In this document: positions 10,613-40,907 of the stretch, one piece after another | Position numbering within the stretch: the stretch's first letter is position 1 | Layout of the letters: each line of letters opens with the position of its first letter | Origin: Bacillota bacterium | Lineage (GTDB): Bacteria > Bacillota > Desulfitobacteriia > Desulfitobacteriales > JAJXUE01 | Length of the DNA stretch: 46,796 nucleotides | Direction: 5' to 3' | Assembly: GCA_021783135.1 (NCBI GenBank) | Contig: JAJXUE010000021.1 | Location: 1-46,796, forward strand | Translations under genes and position numbers: made by a program | The notes under the pieces: generated by a model | Seen by the model: the letters and a program-made list of their open reading frames with translations, nothing else | What the model was told of the DNA's origin: nothing | Database searches by the model: none

Positions 10613-10636
10613 TGTTTGACAAAGTGGGTGAATCGC

Positions 10637-12151
10637 TTGAATAGTTTTTTTGGTTTACAGATAGGTTTAAGGGCCTTACAAACGAACCAAGCTGCAATCG
10701 ATGTTACCGGCAATAATATCGCGAATGCTAGTACCACAGGATATAGCCGGGAAGTAGTCGATTTGACAGAAACAGACCCCTATACCCCGCCTGCGTTTGA
10801 TGCACCAGTAATGGCGGGTCAAATGGGCACAGGTGTCCAAGTTGCCCAAATTCAACGGATGCGGGATACTTTTACGGATAGTATGTATCGCGAACAGACT
10901 GGCAGACAAAATTTTTATACTGCGCAAAATGATGTATTGAGTAAAATTCAGGCGGTTGTGAATGAACCGTCGTCTACCGGGCTCAGCAACGCGTTGCAGA
11001 GTTTTTTTACTGCGTGGCAACAGGTAAGTCAAGATCCGAGCGCGAGCAATCGCGCAGTTTTGGCCCAGGATACGGGTGCTCTCACGGACATGCTGCACTC
11101 CATGTCCAGTGATTTAACGCAACTAAATACGTATATCAACCAAACAGTCAGCGCGAATGTGGACTCTGTCAACAGCTTAACTTCACAGATTGCCGCCCTT
11201 AACGGTCAGATACAAGCTGTTGAGGCTAATAAAGCTAACACTGGGCAGAATGCTAATACTTTGCGAGATCAAAGGGATGTACTTATCGATCAATTGTCCC
11301 AATATGGTGCTATTACTGTAAATGAAGCTCCCGCGACCGGGATGGACACTATCACTATGGGCAATATGACCACACCGTTGGTAAGTGGCACGACGGCAAA
11401 CGCGCTCACGGCGGCAACAGATGCCAATGGCAATAAGGTTGTTGACGACAGTTCGGGCACTCAAGTCGATTTAGGCTACGTCAGCGGCAGCGGTAGTAGC
11501 ACTGATGATAATAGCGGGCTCGTTCAAGGCTATATTGCAGCGCGCGACGGAGCTACCTCAGGCTCGAATGGTTCAGACCTTACAGCTCAGATTAATAATT
11601 TGAATATCTTAGCACAGCAATTGGCAACTTCCGTCAACGCCCAGCAAACGCAAGGGTATGACACTAGCGGCAATCCCGGGGTGAATTTTTTCACTTCCGG
11701 TACATCTCCTACAGTAGATGCGTCCAATATTGAACTTAATCCACTTATTGCGGCGAATACGGACTTGATAGCAGCCGCTTCCAGTACGCCTGCTGCAGCC
11801 GGTGATGGCGGCAATGCCTTGAAAATTGCTAACCTGCAAAGTGCGTTTCCGGCGGGAACGACATTTGTTACGGGCTTCCCGTCAACCCAAACCTTCTCAG
11901 GTTTTTGGCAGACCTCCGTCTTTAATTTAGGCCTGGCCGGACAAACCGCCAACAGCCAAGAAACGAGCTACCAAGCGATGGTCAGCCAATTAGATAATCA
12001 ACGTCAACAGACCTCAGGTGTTTCTAATGATCAAGAGATGACCAATCTGTTGCAATATCAGCATGGTTATGAAGCTGCAGCTAGGGTGATTAACACGGAA
12101 GATTCGATGTTGGATACCATTGTTACAGGCTTAGGAGTTATAACTGCGTAG
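10637..12151 (+). CDS. flgK: Flagellar hook-associated protein 1 (FlgK)
   Basis: About 504 residues. The N-terminus NSFFGLQIGLRALQTNQAAI followed by DVTGNNIANASTTGYSRE is the FlgK rod/hook-family signature, and the C-terminus with YQHGYEAAARVINTEDSMLDTIV is the matching coiled-coil half. It forms the first junction between hook and filament. I place the start at TTG 10637 because GGGTG ends 6 bases before it and family members begin M.SFF; an ATG at 10616 would add seven unlikely residues. The central region is Ser/Gly/Asn-rich and variable, as usual. It is followed 11 bases later by flgL. Confidence 0.95.
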   Translation: MNSFFGLQIGLRALQTNQAAIDVTGNNIANASTTGYSREVVDLTETDPYTPPAFDAPVMAGQMGTGVQVAQIQRMRDTFTDSMYREQTGRQNFYTAQNDVLSKIQAVVNEPSSTGLSNALQSFFTAWQQVSQDPSASNRAVLAQDTGALTDMLHSMSSDLTQLNTYINQTVSANVDSVNSLTSQIAALNGQIQAVEANKANTGQNANTLRDQRDVLIDQLSQYGAITVNEAPATGMDTITMGNMTTPLVSGTTANALTAATDANGNKVVDDSSGTQVDLGYVSGSGSSTDDNSGLVQGYIAARDGATSGSNGSDLTAQINNLNILAQQLATSVNAQQTQGYDTSGNPGVNFFTSGTSPTVDASNIELNPLIAANTDLIAAASSTPAAAGDGGNALKIANLQSAFPAGTTFVTGFPSTQTFSGFWQTSVFNLGLAGQTANSQETSYQAMVSQLDNQRQQTSGVSNDQEMTNLLQYQHGYEAAARVINTEDSMLDTIVTGLGVITA

Positions 12152-12162
12152 AGGTGAGTTTA

Positions 12163-13098
12163 ATGCGAATTACCCAGAATATGATGACCAATACTGTAGT
12201 CCAAAACTTACAAACAAATCTTAATGAACTAAATACCTTGAATGATCAAATTGCTTCCGGGAAAAATTTCTCCGTGCCTTCCGATAATCCGTTAGGTGTT
12301 CTAGACTCTATGCAGCTTACCGATGCAGTTAATGCGAATACGCAGTATATCCAAAATGCTAATCAGGGGATGTCTTTGCTCAATTCAGCGGATGGTAGTC
12401 TGGGCAATTTAACAACTATCATCAACCGGGTTAATGATTTGGCGGTGCAAGGCGCCAGTGACACGCTGACGACGCAAGACCGCATGAGTATTGCCCAAGA
12501 AGTTGCTCAGTTACAAGGTCAAGTCATGTCGATCGCCAATACAGACGTTGCCGGTAATTATATTTTTGCCGGCACGAACAACAACACTCCCCCCATGACT
12601 AGCACCACGAGTGGTGCTACTACAACTTATACTTGGAGCGGCAATAGTAACCCGGCTATCCCGAGCACGCAAATTAGCTACCAAATAGGTGCGAACACCA
12701 ATTTGCAAGTAAATGTTGACGGCAGTTCAATTTTCGGTACTACAGCGCCTACAGGTGCAACTAGTTCGTTAATGCAGACTATGACTAACTTGATTTCTGA
12801 CCTGCAATCTGGTAATGGGCAGCAAATTAGTAGTCGCGACATCGGGGATATTCAGGCGAATCTCGACAACGTTTTGCAAGTCCGTACAGATATCGGTGCG
12901 CGAGTCAACCGTATTCAAAGTATGCAAAATACGCTGACAGGTCAAAATACTAACCTGCAAGAACTGCTCTCGAATGTGCAAAATGTGGACTTAGCACAGG
13001 CGATTACGCAAATGGAGTCACAAAAAGAAACCTATACTGCTTCCTTACAAGCGTCGGCGCAAATTCTGCAACCCACGTTATTGCAGTTTTTATCCTAG
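12163..13098 (+). CDS. flgL: Flagellar hook-associated protein 3 (FlgL)
   Basis: About 311 residues. It starts MRITQNMMTNTVVQNLQTNL, has the flagellin-like N-terminal SGKNFSVPSDNPLGVLDSM motif, AQLQGQVMSIANTDVAGNYIFAGT in the middle and a C-terminal helical end typical of FlgL. It forms the second junction layer between FlgK and the filament. The ATG at 12163 lies 5 bases after GAGGTGA; an upstream in-frame GTG (12154) is part of that ribosome site. The long perfect hairpin just downstream lacks a T-run. Confidence 0.95.
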   Translation: MRITQNMMTNTVVQNLQTNLNELNTLNDQIASGKNFSVPSDNPLGVLDSMQLTDAVNANTQYIQNANQGMSLLNSADGSLGNLTTIINRVNDLAVQGASDTLTTQDRMSIAQEVAQLQGQVMSIANTDVAGNYIFAGTNNNTPPMTSTTSGATTTYTWSGNSNPAIPSTQISYQIGANTNLQVNVDGSSIFGTTAPTGATSSLMQTMTNLISDLQSGNGQQISSRDIGDIQANLDNVLQVRTDIGARVNRIQSMQNTLTGQNTNLQELLSNVQNVDLAQAITQMESQKETYTASLQASAQILQPTLLQFLS

Positions 13099-14170: not shown

Positions 14171-14246
14171 CAGTTGGCGGCCGACAACTGTATGGCAATA
14201 CTTACTCGTCTAAGCAAGGATGCTTAGAAATAGAATTCAAGGAGGA
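14171..14246 (+). promoter_or_regulatory. Flagellin leader with two candidate CsrA sites
   Basis: Within the leader, a 5' hairpin CAGTTG/CAACTG (14171-14190) is followed by CTAAGC (14210-14215) and GCTTAG (14222-14227), which close a six-base loop AAGGAT presenting GGA. That is a typical high-affinity CsrA site. The second candidate is the ribosome site itself, CAAGGAGGAA (about 14238-14247). This two-site layout mirrors the Bacillus hag leader. It is inferred from sequence and from the neighbouring csrA and fliW. Confidence 0.65.
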
Positions 14247-14252
14247 ATATCA

Positions 14253-15080
14253 ATGATTATCAACACTAACATGAGTGCCTTGATTGCGGAAAGTAACCTA
14301 AGTAATACGCAAAGCGCTATGGCATCCGATGTGCAAAAGCTGTCTTCCGGTCTGCGCATTAACAGTGCAGCCGACGACGCCGCAGGTCTGGCCATATCGG
14401 AAAAAATGAAAGCGCAAATCAACGGCTTGACCCAAGCTCAACGTAATTCCCAAGACGGTATCTCGATGCTGCAAACCGCTGAAGGCGGCATGAGTCAAGT
14501 ACAAAGTATCCTGCAGCGGATGCGGGAACTTGCTGTACAGTCTGCCAGTGATACCAACACCAGCTCTGACCGTACCCAGATTTCCACCGAGTTTAAGCAG
14601 TTGCAATCTGAAATTGGTCGTATTGCTGGTGCAACCCAATTTAATACCAAGGATTTGATTAATGGCGCAGGTGCAACCGGTATCGCCTTTACGATTCAAG
14701 TTGGTGCCAATAAGGATCAAGTTATTGGTTTCTCTATCTCAGGAGTAGGTGCCACTTCCTTAGGCGTTAATACCACCCAAGCAGCCGTTACCAATCAGTC
14801 AGTTGCAGCATCAGCAATCTCCACCATTTATGTATCTATCAATTCGATCTCCACTGACCGCGACAAACTCGGCGCACTGCAAAACCGTTTCCAATATGCG
14901 ATTAATAACCTGGGAACTTCGCTCTTAAATATTACTTCTGCCCAGTCCCAGATTGCAGATGTAGATATGGCGACGCAGATGTCAGACTTTACCAAAAATC
15001 AAATTCTCAGCCAAGCCGGTACATCAATGTTGGCGCAAGCTAACCAGATGAACCAAAGTATTTTGAAACTATTCCCGTAA
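14253..15080 (+). CDS. hag: Flagellin
   Basis: A protein of 275 residues and the only flagellin gene in the window. The N-terminal D0/D1 region MIINTNMSALIAESNLSNTQ, LSSGLRINSAADDAAGLAIS and the C-terminal D1/D0 region TSLLNITSAQSQIADVDMAT through ANQMNQSILKLFP are complete. The central variable domain is very short, so the protein is little more than the filament core. The ATG at 14253 follows AAGGAGGA by 6 bases. An apparent upstream ATG (14220) lies in the leader stem and is rejected. It is expected to be under FliA transcriptional and CsrA/FliW translational control. Confidence 0.97.
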   Translation: MIINTNMSALIAESNLSNTQSAMASDVQKLSSGLRINSAADDAAGLAISEKMKAQINGLTQAQRNSQDGISMLQTAEGGMSQVQSILQRMRELAVQSASDTNTSSDRTQISTEFKQLQSEIGRIAGATQFNTKDLINGAGATGIAFTIQVGANKDQVIGFSISGVGATSLGVNTTQAAVTNQSVAASAISTIYVSINSISTDRDKLGALQNRFQYAINNLGTSLLNITSAQSQIADVDMATQMSDFTKNQILSQAGTSMLAQANQMNQSILKLFP

Positions 15081-15576: not shown

Positions 15577-17526
15577 ATGTCAGTGAGCAGTACATCGATC
15601 AGCAGTGCGACAGGGGCTAGTCCTATCACCTTCAGTGGATTAGTTTCCGGCGTAGACACCTCCAGTATTATCCAAAAATTGATGGCTGTCCAAAGTCAAC
15701 CGTTGGTGGCCATGCAAAACGAACAAACCCAACTCCAACAACAACAGACCGACTATATGACGCTCAACAATGACTTGATGAATTTGTCGAATGCAGTAAA
15801 TACTCTTCAGGATCAGACTACATTTGACTCCATGACAGCCACGTCGAGTTCTCCTACTGTGCTCAGTGCGACAGCGGCGAGCGGCACGAATGCCGGAACC
15901 TACAATGTAGTAGTCAGTGGTCTCGCCCAAAACGCAGAGGTCGCAGCGACTAATGCATTTACTGACTCCACCACTCAAACAGTCGGGTCGTTATTAGGTA
16001 GTAATTTTACCGCCGGTACGATTAGTGTAGGAGGTGCCAACGTTTCGGTCGCCTCTACTGACACCTTAAGTGACATCGTTAATAACATTAATGCTGCCCA
16101 ATCAAACCTAACCGCTACCGAGATTGGCAATAAGCTCGTGTTAACTGCAGCCCAAGGCGGAGCAACGAATCAAATTACGGTTGGTACGGCCGGTCCCTAT
16201 ACCCTGTCAGACGGTACGTCTAATCTCTTAAGTCAACTCGGAGTTTACACTGGAACTACGGTAAACAGCGTGCAGCTTGGTACCAGTGCCAATCTCACTG
16301 TTAACAATATCCCGGTCACGAGTAATTCCAATACCTTAACCAATGCAGTCGCAGGTTTAACTATAAACCTTGCTTCAACTGGCAGTTCAACTGTGCAGGT
16401 GGCAACGGATACCAAGACGGCCAGTGACGCAGTACAAAACTTCGTTACGCAGTACAACGCAGTAATGGACTTTATTGATTCCAACTCACAATATGACAGC
16501 ACTTCTAATACAGCCGGGGTCTTTATGGGCGACATAACAGTTATGCAACTGCAACAATCCCTGCGGGATATGATTAGTACCACTGTCAGCGGCCCGGGTT
16601 CATCTACCAACTACAACACCTTGTTCCAGGTTGGCATTAACACCTCAAGCACAAACAATGATTTGTCATTTAATACCAACTCCTTTGCGACTGCAATGTC
16701 GGCAGACCCTTCGGCAGTGTCGACATTATTTGGCGCTAGCACCCGGACTAACATTGCCTTGAGTTCAAGTGGAGCCACAGCAACTTCCAGTGTGAGTGAT
16801 ACAAACTTTAATCCTAATGCCGTGTTATCCGGCAACACTTCAGATGCAAACTGGGGCGACGGTGCGCTTGATGGAGGCTGGCAAAGCGCAGCGCTAACCG
16901 GGACACAGACCCTGGCAACGAATCCGGCCGATTTGTACATCAATTTAAACGGAACTCAAAATGTCAACGAAGTAATGTTACAAACGGTCAATTCTGCTTC
17001 AATGCCGACTAGCCAGTACGGTATTAGCAATGTCGAAGTGGATTATTTGGACCAAAATGGTACTTGGCAGACAGCTCAGTCGATTACAGGTAATACCAAC
17101 GAATATATGGATATGACTTTTAACAGTGTGAGTACCTCCCAACTGCGGGTGCGGGTTACAGGTGCGAACGGTACTGGTGATACGCAAGCTCGCTTGGTGA
17201 GCGCTCAAGTGTTTCCTACCAATAATGGTGTAGCTTCGCAGATGAATGATCTCATTCAGAATTATACCATGTACGGTACGGGAATTTTACCGGGAGTACA
17301 GGCTTCACTTAGTTCCCAGATCCAAGACTTGAGCACCCAGATGAGTGACTTAAACAACCAGCTGACCTTGGAACAGACGAATTTGCAAAATGAATTTAAT
17401 GCGATGGAAACAGCCATTCAAGGTTTTCAATCACAAGGCTCGGCGCTTTCTAGTATGTTAAGTACTTCGACCTCAAGCACTTCGACCTCAAGTTCATCAA
17501 CAACAGGCACCAGTACTATAGGGTAG
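15577..17526 (+). CDS. fliD: Flagellar filament cap FliD with an inserted discoidin-like domain
   Basis: A protein of 649 residues, long for a Firmicute FliD. The N-terminal part (1-110) has ITFSGLVSGVDTSSIIQKLM and the FliD_N helix. The FliD_C region begins near 260 (TASDAVQNFVTQYNAVMDFI) and resumes after the insert with IQDLSTQMSDLNNQLTLEQT and LQNEFNAMETAI. Between about 403 and 546 lies an extra segment with the pattern of an F5/8 type C (discoidin, galactose-binding-like) domain: NVNEVMLQTV, YGISNVEVDYLDQNGTWQTA, SVSTSQLRVRV and ARLVSAQVF. The C-terminus is a Ser/Thr tract coded by short repeats. The cap sits at the filament tip and helps flagellin fold in; the insert would be exposed there and may bind a carbohydrate or surface. 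GGTGGTGAG precedes the ATG. Confidence 0.93.
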   Translation: MSVSSTSISSATGASPITFSGLVSGVDTSSIIQKLMAVQSQPLVAMQNEQTQLQQQQTDYMTLNNDLMNLSNAVNTLQDQTTFDSMTATSSSPTVLSATAASGTNAGTYNVVVSGLAQNAEVAATNAFTDSTTQTVGSLLGSNFTAGTISVGGANVSVASTDTLSDIVNNINAAQSNLTATEIGNKLVLTAAQGGATNQITVGTAGPYTLSDGTSNLLSQLGVYTGTTVNSVQLGTSANLTVNNIPVTSNSNTLTNAVAGLTINLASTGSSTVQVATDTKTASDAVQNFVTQYNAVMDFIDSNSQYDSTSNTAGVFMGDITVMQLQQSLRDMISTTVSGPGSSTNYNTLFQVGINTSSTNNDLSFNTNSFATAMSADPSAVSTLFGASTRTNIALSSSGATATSSVSDTNFNPNAVLSGNTSDANWGDGALDGGWQSAALTGTQTLATNPADLYINLNGTQNVNEVMLQTVNSASMPTSQYGISNVEVDYLDQNGTWQTAQSITGNTNEYMDMTFNSVSTSQLRVRVTGANGTGDTQARLVSAQVFPTNNGVASQMNDLIQNYTMYGTGILPGVQASLSSQIQDLSTQMSDLNNQLTLEQTNLQNEFNAMETAIQGFQSQGSALSSMLSTSTSSTSTSSSSTTGTSTIG

Positions 17527-17538
17527 GGGGATAAAGTA

Positions 17539-17940
17539 ATGCAAAACGGAGTAAATGCGTATAAGAAGGCGGCAATTCAATCTACTCCCCAAGATAAATT
17601 GCTGATTATGTTATATGATCATGCTATTCGTTACTTAAAGGTAGCCAAAGATGCGTGTGCAACTAAAGATTATGAAGCTACGAACGATAACTTACTTAAA
17701 GCCCAAGATATCGTAACCGAACTAATCGTGCAATTGAATATGGAGTATGAAGTAGCCCAAAGCCTGTACCGGTTATATGATTATTTTCGTCGCAGGTTGA
17801 TTGAAGCCAACATGCAAAAAAACATGAAACACGTCGATGAGGTTATCGGACACTTGACGGAATTGCGTGAAACATGGATCCAAGCTGCCTTAATCATTAA
17901 ACAAGAGGGTACTAATCGAGGTTTAAGTTATGCAGGATAG
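17539..17940 (+). CDS. fliS: Flagellin export chaperone FliS
   Basis: A protein of 133 residues, all-helical, with the family signature near the start (NGVNAYKKAAIQSTPQDKLL followed by IMLYDHAIRYLK) and a helical C-terminal half with LYRLYDYFRRRLIEAN. It binds the flagellin C-terminus and prevents premature polymerisation. It lies 12 bases after fliD and overlaps the next gene by 11 bases. Confidence 0.96.
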   Translation: MQNGVNAYKKAAIQSTPQDKLLIMLYDHAIRYLKVAKDACATKDYEATNDNLLKAQDIVTELIVQLNMEYEVAQSLYRLYDYFRRRLIEANMQKNMKHVDEVIGHLTELRETWIQAALIIKQEGTNRGLSYAG

Positions 17941-18397
17941 TAGTTCAGCTTCCTTAGCAGAACACTATCACCATAGGTTGAGTGAATTTGAAAAACTTCT
18001 GGCGATTACGCATGAAATTAGAGCCCTGAGCCGTGATACTCGTACAGGAGTGCTGCTAGAAAAACTCAAAGCTCGGGAGCAAATCTTTCAACAGTTAGTA
18101 GAACTTAATGAACTCATCAAACCGCTAGAGGCCTCAATCTCAGATGCTCCCGCCACAATAAACCGAGACGATTATATTTTAAGTAAGCTCACTGAGTCTG
18201 ACCAAAGGTGCGTGATGCGCACCAGAGAAATTCTTGCAACCATACTCAAACTGGACCAAGAAATCTCAATTGATTTTTCGGGTTATTTCCAAAATATTAT
18301 TGAGCGCATGCGCGATGTGTCCGCAAAAAAACGCCTTACTGATGTTTACCGTAATTTACGAACGTTGAACCCGCGGTTTTTAGATGCGGAGATCTAG
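17930..18397 (+). CDS. FliT-like flagellar chaperone (putative)
   Basis: A protein of 155 residues with heptad-like helices throughout (HRLSEFEKLLAITHEIRAL, then LLEKLKAREQIFQQLVELNEL). There is no membrane segment and no catalytic motif. Its position directly after fliS, overlapping it by 11 bases, is the usual place of fliT or a FliT/FlgN-like chaperone, often for FliD. Sequence similarity to FliT is not evident by eye, so the call rests on position and helical character. It is the last gene of the late block and is closed by a strong terminator. Confidence 0.55.
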   Translation: MQDSSSASLAEHYHHRLSEFEKLLAITHEIRALSRDTRTGVLLEKLKAREQIFQQLVELNELIKPLEASISDAPATINRDDYILSKLTESDQRCVMRTREILATILKLDQEISIDFSGYFQNIIERMRDVSAKKRLTDVYRNLRTLNPRFLDAEI

Positions 18398-18520: not shown

Positions 18521-19006
18521 ATGTCTCTGTTTCAGTCGCTTGACATCAGTGGATCCGGTTTGACAGCTGAACGCCTACGGATGGACTTGATTGCAAATAA
18601 CATTGCCAATGTCAACACAACGCGTACCGGCAATACCACCGCAAGTGGTAATCAAATTCCCTATCAGCGCGAGGTTCCTGAATTCGAGTCGCGAACCCTC
18701 CCGTTTCAAACCTTACTTAATGAGCAGATGCAAGGGGGACAGCTACAATCGTCTGGGGATGGCGTGGAAGTGAGCGCTATTGTTAACGATCCAGCGCCTT
18801 TTAAGGAGGTTTACGATCCGTCCAGCCCTGATGCGATTAAGGTTGCCGAACCTGGATTACAACCTGGGTATGTCCGGACACCTAATGTAGAAATGGTCAA
18901 CGAAATGGTGGATATGATTTCGGCCTCACGTGCCTATGAAGCCAACGTCACGGCGATTAATGCCGGGAAGTCTTTAGTGCAAAAGGCCTTGACTATCGGA
19001 CAATAA
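18521..19006 (+). CDS. flgC: Flagellar basal-body rod protein FlgC
   Basis: A protein of 161 residues with the rod-family N-terminus FQSLDISGSGLTAERLRMDL then IANNIANVNTT, and the C-terminal signature TPNVEMVNEMVDMISASRAYEANV. It forms part of the proximal rod. The ATG follows GGAGGGG. Normally flgB lies directly upstream; here it does not, and flgC opens the 23-kb operon. Confidence 0.96.
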   Translation: MSLFQSLDISGSGLTAERLRMDLIANNIANVNTTRTGNTTASGNQIPYQREVPEFESRTLPFQTLLNEQMQGGQLQSSGDGVEVSAIVNDPAPFKEVYDPSSPDAIKVAEPGLQPGYVRTPNVEMVNEMVDMISASRAYEANVTAINAGKSLVQKALTIGQ

Positions 19007-39744: not shown

Positions 39745-40503
39745 GTGATTGACGCGCTAAACACCGGCGCCAGTGCCGTGTTGGCTCAACAGACCGGATT
39801 AGATGCTATTGCCAACGATGTTGCCAATGTCAATACTTCGGGCTACAAAGCAACCAGGACCAATTTTGCGGACTTGCTCTACTCGCCGACGCGGGACGAT
39901 GTACCTGCCAACCAGGCCCCGTTAAACGGCACAGGCGCTAAGGTGGCCGGAATCCAAACCATCTTTAACCAAGGCTCGTTGGTTCAGACCGGGCAAAGCA
40001 CGGATTTAGCTATTGCAGGGGACGGTTTTTTCGCGGTTACCCTGCCGGACGGGACTCAAGCTTATACCCGTAACGGTAGTTTTGCCCCGGATGCTAACGG
40101 TACGTTAGTCAATAGTGATGGCTACATGCTAAATCCACCTTTAAAAGTTCCCGCTGGAGCAGCTGTTAAAATTACCAGTGACGGTAAAGTTTCGACCCTG
40201 CAAAACGGCAAAAGTATAGTGCTTGGTCAACTTACTTTGGCCACTTTCGCTAATCCTGACGGCTTGAACAAATTGGGCGATAATTTGTATCAGGTGTCCG
40301 CTAATTCCGGTGCAGCCATAACCGGTACGCCGGGCAACGGCAACAATGGCACGATTCGTTCCGGGTATTTGGAAAGCTCCAATGTTGATCTGGCTAATGC
40401 TATGACATCTTTGATTGAGGCGCAGCGGGCTTACCAGGCCAACGCGCGAGTAATTACCAATGCGGATCAGATGATGAGTATCGCCAATAATCTGAGGGGG
40501 TAA
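39745..40503 (+). CDS. flgG: Flagellar distal rod protein FlgG
   Basis: A protein of 252 residues. It has the family N-terminus TGLDAIANDVANVNTSGYKA, with D in place of the usual second N of IANN. The middle reads GQSTDLAIAGDGFFAVTLPD and the C-terminus has LESSNVDLANAMTSLIEAQR then AYQANARVITNADQMM, the FlgG hallmark. It is followed 5 bases later by flgB. The GTG start is preceded by GGACGGTGAG. Confidence 0.85.
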   Translation: MIDALNTGASAVLAQQTGLDAIANDVANVNTSGYKATRTNFADLLYSPTRDDVPANQAPLNGTGAKVAGIQTIFNQGSLVQTGQSTDLAIAGDGFFAVTLPDGTQAYTRNGSFAPDANGTLVNSDGYMLNPPLKVPAGAAVKITSDGKVSTLQNGKSIVLGQLTLATFANPDGLNKLGDNLYQVSANSGAAITGTPGNGNNGTIRSGYLESSNVDLANAMTSLIEAQRAYQANARVITNADQMMSIANNLRG

Positions 40504-40508
40504 TTGTT

Positions 40509-40907
40509 GTGTTTGATCCAAGCTATCTTCAAGTCTTGCAAAATGGCTTGCACGCAGCCAGCTTGCGCCAAAATGTCATCGCCAATAATCTGTCAAATCT
40601 TGATACCCCAGGCTTTAAGGCCAGCAGTGTGCAGTTTGAAAACATTTTGGCTCAGAGTTTAGATCAGGGGGCTAACTTGCCGCTGTTAACCAATGCTCCC
40701 AATCAGTTTGGCACACCTGCCTCTGATGCGGTTACCCCGGAAATTACGCAAAATAATACCACCTCACTGCGCCCGGATGGCAACAATGTGGATATCGACC
40801 AACAGATGACGGATTTAGCCAAAAACAACCTGTACAATGACAGTTTGACGGCACAAATCTCCGCTCAATTGGGCATATTGCGCATGGTAATCAGTGAAAA
40901 ACCATAG
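40509..40907 (+). CDS. flgB: Flagellar basal-body rod protein FlgB
   Basis: A protein of 132 residues. It has FlgB features: a short rod protein with LQNGLHAASLRQNVIANNLS then NLDTPGFKASSVQFENIL, the central DGNNVDIDQQMTDLAKNNLY and C-terminal ISAQLGILRMVISEK. It is the proximal rod subunit next to FliE. It is normally the partner directly upstream of flgC, but here it lies between flgG and flgF, about 21.5 kb away. No second copy was found upstream of flgC. Confidence 0.93.
   Translation: MFDPSYLQVLQNGLHAASLRQNVIANNLSNLDTPGFKASSVQFENILAQSLDQGANLPLLTNAPNQFGTPASDAVTPEITQNNTTSLRPDGNNVDIDQQMTDLAKNNLYNDSLTAQISAQLGILRMVISEKP

Follow-up and report, generated by a model that had tools for sequence, protein, structure and literature searches.

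Domain insertions in the flagellar cap protein FliD are known and have been described as not unusual (PMC7316729). The closest described system is the FliD of Campylobacter jejuni (PDB 6SIH, 9GSX; PMC7316729, PMC12221982), which contains an extra domain D4 of approximately 134 residues (about 424–557 in the numbering of 9GSX) inserted in its D1 bundle. This domain is absent from the other FliD orthologues compared (PMC7316729, PMC12221982), and a role in adhesion has been proposed for it, with a link to heparin binding being postulated (PMC7316729). The D4 domains are distant from the cap cavity and are hence assigned no part in the incorporation of flagellin (PMC12221982), and in the structure of the C. 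jejuni tip at the junction stage they are located between D3 of a neighboring subunit and FlgL, where they are held to affect the angle between D2 and D3 (PMC12221982). A cap protein is likewise reported to act as tip adhesin in Pseudomonas aeruginosa, where FliD is described as mucin adhesin in a review (PMC8306008), the passages considered not ascribing this property to an inserted F5/8 type C domain. In flagellinolysins, which are proteolytic flagellins (PMC5595980), a domain inserted in a protein of the flagellar filament similarly confers an extra function on the flagellum. However, in that case a metallopeptidase is carried by flagellin throughout the filament, whereas the protein described here is predicted to display a binding-type fold in about five copies at the tip.

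This protein is a FliD encoded on a 46,796-nucleotide stretch of DNA from a Bacillota bacterium (in the following termed the window), which contains a complete domain of the F5/8 type C family. Its sequence profile and predicted fold resemble the PF00754/CBM32 modules of glycoside hydrolases. In contrast to the CBM32 modules of secreted enzymes, which are terminal or flanked by linkers, this domain is nested within a structural protein of the flagellum, where it features a putative ligand site.

Insertion of an F5/8 type C domain into FliD

The fliD gene resides in a flagellar gene cluster, in a window that also contains the sporulation gene spoIVA. The features relevant for this study are:

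14220..15080, + strand: flagellin of 286 residues, near-minimal in length (NCBIfam flagellin models)
15577..17526, + strand: fliD, filament cap protein of 649 residues (Pfam matches to FliD_N and FliD_C exceed the cut-offs; flanked by flagellin/FlaG-like ORFs and by fliS)
16747..17220, + strand: inserted segment, residues 391–548 (two-piece alignment to the 489-residue FliD of the sister genus G002; 162-residue gap between flanking profiles)
16777..17181, + strand: core of the F5/8 type C (discoidin, CBM32-like) domain, residues 401–535 (PF00754, 30.7 bits in the genome search; AlphaFold2 and Foldseek)
16852..16881, + strand: WGxG...GGW motif, residues 426–435 (alignments A3 and A4)
17221..17484, + strand: rest of FliD_C with the NNGVASQM junction following the insert and the C-terminal helix, residues 549–636 (43% identity to the G002 FliD; C-terminal FliD profile 550–636)
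17539..17940, + strand: fliS (PF02561, E 8e-36)

The FlaG-like ORF beside fliD was assigned by eye. Between fliS and flgC, an ORF of 155 residues (17930–18397) shows no match in Pfam, and its position suggests a FliT-like chaperone. The gene flgC (18521–19006) is found alone downstream of the fliS cluster, and flgB (40491–40907) is located at a distance of about 22 kb, together with further genes of the rod/hook type.

The assignment of the protein as FliD is based on Pfam matches of the whole sequence to FliD_N (85.3 bits compared to a cut-off of 24.8, residues 24–119) and FliD_C (125.7 bits compared to 25.4), the latter covering residues 235–394 before being interrupted and continuing in a second stretch after the segment. 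The reading frame, its length, the boundaries of the segment and the F5/8 motifs quoted in the original prediction are all found in the sequence, and the proposed insertion of an F5/8 type C domain was borne out by a match of the isolated segment to PF00754 (E 2.4e-7, 31.3 bits) above the curated cut-off of 28.2 bits and by the fold comparison described below. In a scan of the whole 649-residue protein, PF00754 was not listed and the galactose-binding family PF22633 was reported instead, matching residues 432–525; the isolated segment also scores above the cut-off of this family. The FliD of G002, a sister genus of the same family, comprises 489 residues with a short linker in place of the segment and aligns to the window protein on both flanks (residues 15–388 at 52% and 550–636 at 43% identity), thus confirming that the insertion is clean. 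We rejected an assembly join or foreign DNA as origin of the segment, since its composition (GC 0.479, GC3 0.462) does not shift relative to the remaining fliD (0.468 and 0.485) and a single open frame is maintained. Judged by this composition, the domain, if acquired, was not acquired recently. The segment is neither an ordinary D2 nor D3 domain, as the normal D2/D3 and the D1 helices are complete besides the insert.

The insert is not located in the D2/D3 head. It separates the last segment of D1 (LFGA) from the C-terminal helix, at the junction LFG|G(V/L)A. By profile alignment, this is the site of D4, as illustrated in 9GSX, where the profiles of the flanking regions cover the sequence up to residue 423 and again from residue 558 onward. 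The linker at this junction has a median length of 16 residues in 101 FliDs and comprises 148–169 residues in the five proteins carrying F5/8 type C domains. The likeness to D4 observed here concerns the junction, and 9GSX is absent among the 50 listed Foldseek matches of the insert model.

Our AlphaFold2 model of the insert, predicted from a shallow alignment of five rows (the insert and four relatives), is a beta-sandwich with a mean pLDDT of 73.5 and a pTM of 0.75, which agrees with the jelly roll anticipated initially. Its loops 46–62, where ligand loops could be located, have a pLDDT below 50. In a Foldseek search of the PDB, the best match is the CBM32 module 2xqx of EndoD (E 2e-8), followed by chitosan-binding modules, galactose-bound CBM32s and then discoidin domains, and several of the matching CBM32 modules are structures solved with bound sugar. 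Independently of the model, a sequence profile built from the inserts of all five FliDs retrieves the PDB chains of 2xqx (3e-9), neuropilin-1 and factor V. Streptavidin fusions also appeared as hits in the PDB, but look like low-complexity matches and were set aside. The model of full-length FliD (pLDDT 63, pTM 0.49) is of a quality that suffices only to show that FliD and CBM32 structures each match parts of the protein.

The FliD of the window contains 8 Lys and Arg compared to 39 Asp and Glu in its 649 residues, and its insert contains neither Lys nor His and 3 Arg. The low content of basic residues extends to FlgK and FlgL (10616–13098), but not to flagellin, and may reflect an acidic habitat. 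In combination with spoIVA and the size of the class (83 genomes), the low charge of FliD would suggest a small class of spore formers close to the Alicyclobacillales, possibly acidophilic.

Occurrence and history of the insert

Upon inspection of long FliDs in 398 Bacillota genomes, we found similar inserts at the same junction in two proteins, L072 (27% identity to the insert of the window) and L062 (32%; alignment A8), and a profile of the three sequences retrieved two more, L133 and L137. A first scan of named genomes with the segment of the window alone as query had not provided a match. All five inserts score above the PF00754 cut-off, either isolated or in place (L072 in the whole protein), and each of the five proteins contains FliD_N and FliD_C. 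Among the carriers are the Bacillota isolate JPMR_maxbin.032 (L133, also L138), Firmicutes UBA3943 (L072, also L139) and Clostridia DTU022 (L137, also L140), and the carrier loci that were read show the order flagellin-FlaG-FliD-FliS or FliD-FliS-flgB-flgC, with neighbors assigned by eye. The flgB-flgC pair, which is split in the window, is adjacent in L140. At pairwise identities of 27–53%, the five inserts share conserved core positions, including the W, both following G and the closing GW of the WGxG...GGW motif.

The high-scoring domain was found in four genomes in each of two overlapping samples of 398 genomes, in every instance within FliD. The insert is thus rare (about 1%), yet present in five Bacillota families, which are that of the window and four others. 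The expectation that relatives would share the domain therefore holds for distant Bacillota but not for the close relative G002. In the 82 further genomes of the same class, a BLAST search with the insert yielded no relative, and it is hence not a class-wide trait; an order-wide search with PF00754 missed even the copy of the window and is thus not evidence of absence. Weaker profile matches in Bacillota (31–39 bits) were rejected as FliD inserts, since their loci contain no FliD match.

Different sequences are found at the same junction in other FliDs. L047 (938–3064), L118 (339–3791) and L124 (260–3772) contain a beta-type domain of about 110–120 residues, which is unrelated to F5/8 type C domains and by eye resembles Flagellin_IN repeats, and L054 (368–2104) a Thr-rich low-complexity linker with TTTT runs. 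In L112, L113, L114, L115 and L116, repeat-like domains interrupt FliD_C elsewhere (profile positions of about 112–118), which is another insertion point.

In a tree of the FliD trunks, calculated after removal of the inserts, the protein of the window is joined first by its insert-free sister and next by insert-free relatives of the class, with strong support, and a single clade of the five carrier trunks is rejected (p-AU 9e-9). A single clade of the five inserts themselves is not rejected (p-AU of 0.37) and is recovered in 8% of bootstraps, in a tree of 8 sequences with long branches whose weak support neither establishes nor rules out a single origin in FliD. The separate placement of the carrier trunks implies that the domain was either present in an ancestor and lost repeatedly or has moved between fliD genes. 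The nearest relatives found outside FliD are from Actinomycetota, namely Micromonospora (40% identity to L133 over the best segment) and Nonomuraea (37%). In the Micromonospora protein, which is the closest non-FliD relative with a recognized partner domain, the module follows a GH106 rhamnosidase-like enzyme. The respective gene (L141, 2219–6363) is apparently a frame-shifted pair of ORFs with the F5/8 type C module in the second frame. No phage relatives of the insert were found by sequence, and the structural matches to viral proteins are generic for F5/8 type C domains. A scenario that we consider unlikely, although worth stating, is that of a mobile, FliD-specific lectin-like module that would be exchanged between distant Bacillota from one fliD gene to another, using the D4 site as a single permissive junction and thereby equipping the tip with interchangeable ligand-binding specificities, in a tip-adhesin system resembling the exchangeable tips of phage tail fibers.

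Possible roles of the domain at the flagellar tip

The described features identify this FliD as a normal cap protein with an additional CBM32-like jelly roll at the junction between D1 and the C-terminal helix. By analogy to C. jejuni, a pentameric cap would place five of these domains on its outer flank, just below the head plate and remote from the cavity used for the folding of flagellin. It is the insertion at the D4 site that leads us to expect this location rather than the distal face. The near-minimal length of the flagellin (286 residues) should leave the cap exposed. The domains would most likely bind a polysaccharide or another surface ligand, both the binding and the carbohydrate nature of their target being inferred, with about five putative binding copies per filament situated at the tip. 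We give an even chance to a role in ligand binding, by which the flagellar tip would become an organ of adhesion or contact. This role would be in line with the sugar-bound CBM32 modules among the fold matches, the GH106-like partner of the Micromonospora relative, the link of D4 to heparin binding postulated for C. jejuni (PMC7316729) and FliD of other bacteria being a reported mucin adhesin (PMC8306008). Speaking against ligand binding, the copy of the window is diverged, poor in basic residues and degenerate at the DG position, loops that could contact a ligand are modeled at low confidence, and the same flagellar gene lacks the insert in the sister genus. The DG position, which we take to be part of a calcium site, is SG in the window (LSGN), NG in L062 and DG in the other three inserts.

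F5/8 type C domains also bind proteins or lipids or act as spacers, and the main rival to ligand binding is a structural role, which we regard as rather unlikely. The domain would in that case act as a D4-like wedge between neighboring FliD heads and the layer below, and determine the geometry or stability of the cap without engaging an outside ligand. The position of D4 between D3 of its neighbor and FlgL and its assumed effect on the D2-D3 angle (PMC12221982) argue for such a role, as do the unrelated beta domains that L047, L118 and L124 contain at this junction, some of which resemble Flagellin_IN by eye. However, one would hardly expect a spacer to adopt a ligand-binding fold, and a short linker suffices in the sister genus.

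Two further explanations appear still less probable. The domain might recognize glycans of its own cell, present on glycosylated flagellin or a surface polymer, and thereby seat or release the cap or hold cells in aggregates. This is consistent with the frequent sugar binding in this fold family and with flagellar glycosylation being reportedly widespread within the genus Clostridium (PMC13317340), but the ORFs scanned, which cover part of the window, contain no match to a glycosylation family, and we consider this explanation improbable. An insertion that is tolerated without a selected role, in a permissive loop where both domains and low-complexity linkers accumulate, would account for the rare and patchy distribution of the F5/8 type C domain and for the Flagellin_IN-like domains and the Thr-rich linker at the junction in other species. 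We find it very improbable in light of the recurrence of the same subfamily at this junction across five families, its core positions being conserved despite identities of 27–53%.

No description of an F5/8 type C domain in FliD was found in the open-licence literature searched, which is not proof of novelty, and the architecture may be listed in public domain-architecture databases. Provided that the domain does bind a ligand, an adhesin or contact probe would be an integral part of the flagellar tip, and its specificity would depend on one defined domain located at one defined junction. The adhesion by FliD, which is debated for pathogens, would then become testable in non-pathogens by removal of a single domain. 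In addition, our study reveals the D4 site to be a general point of insertion, which allows the diversity of FliD proteins to be surveyed for functions of the flagellar tip.
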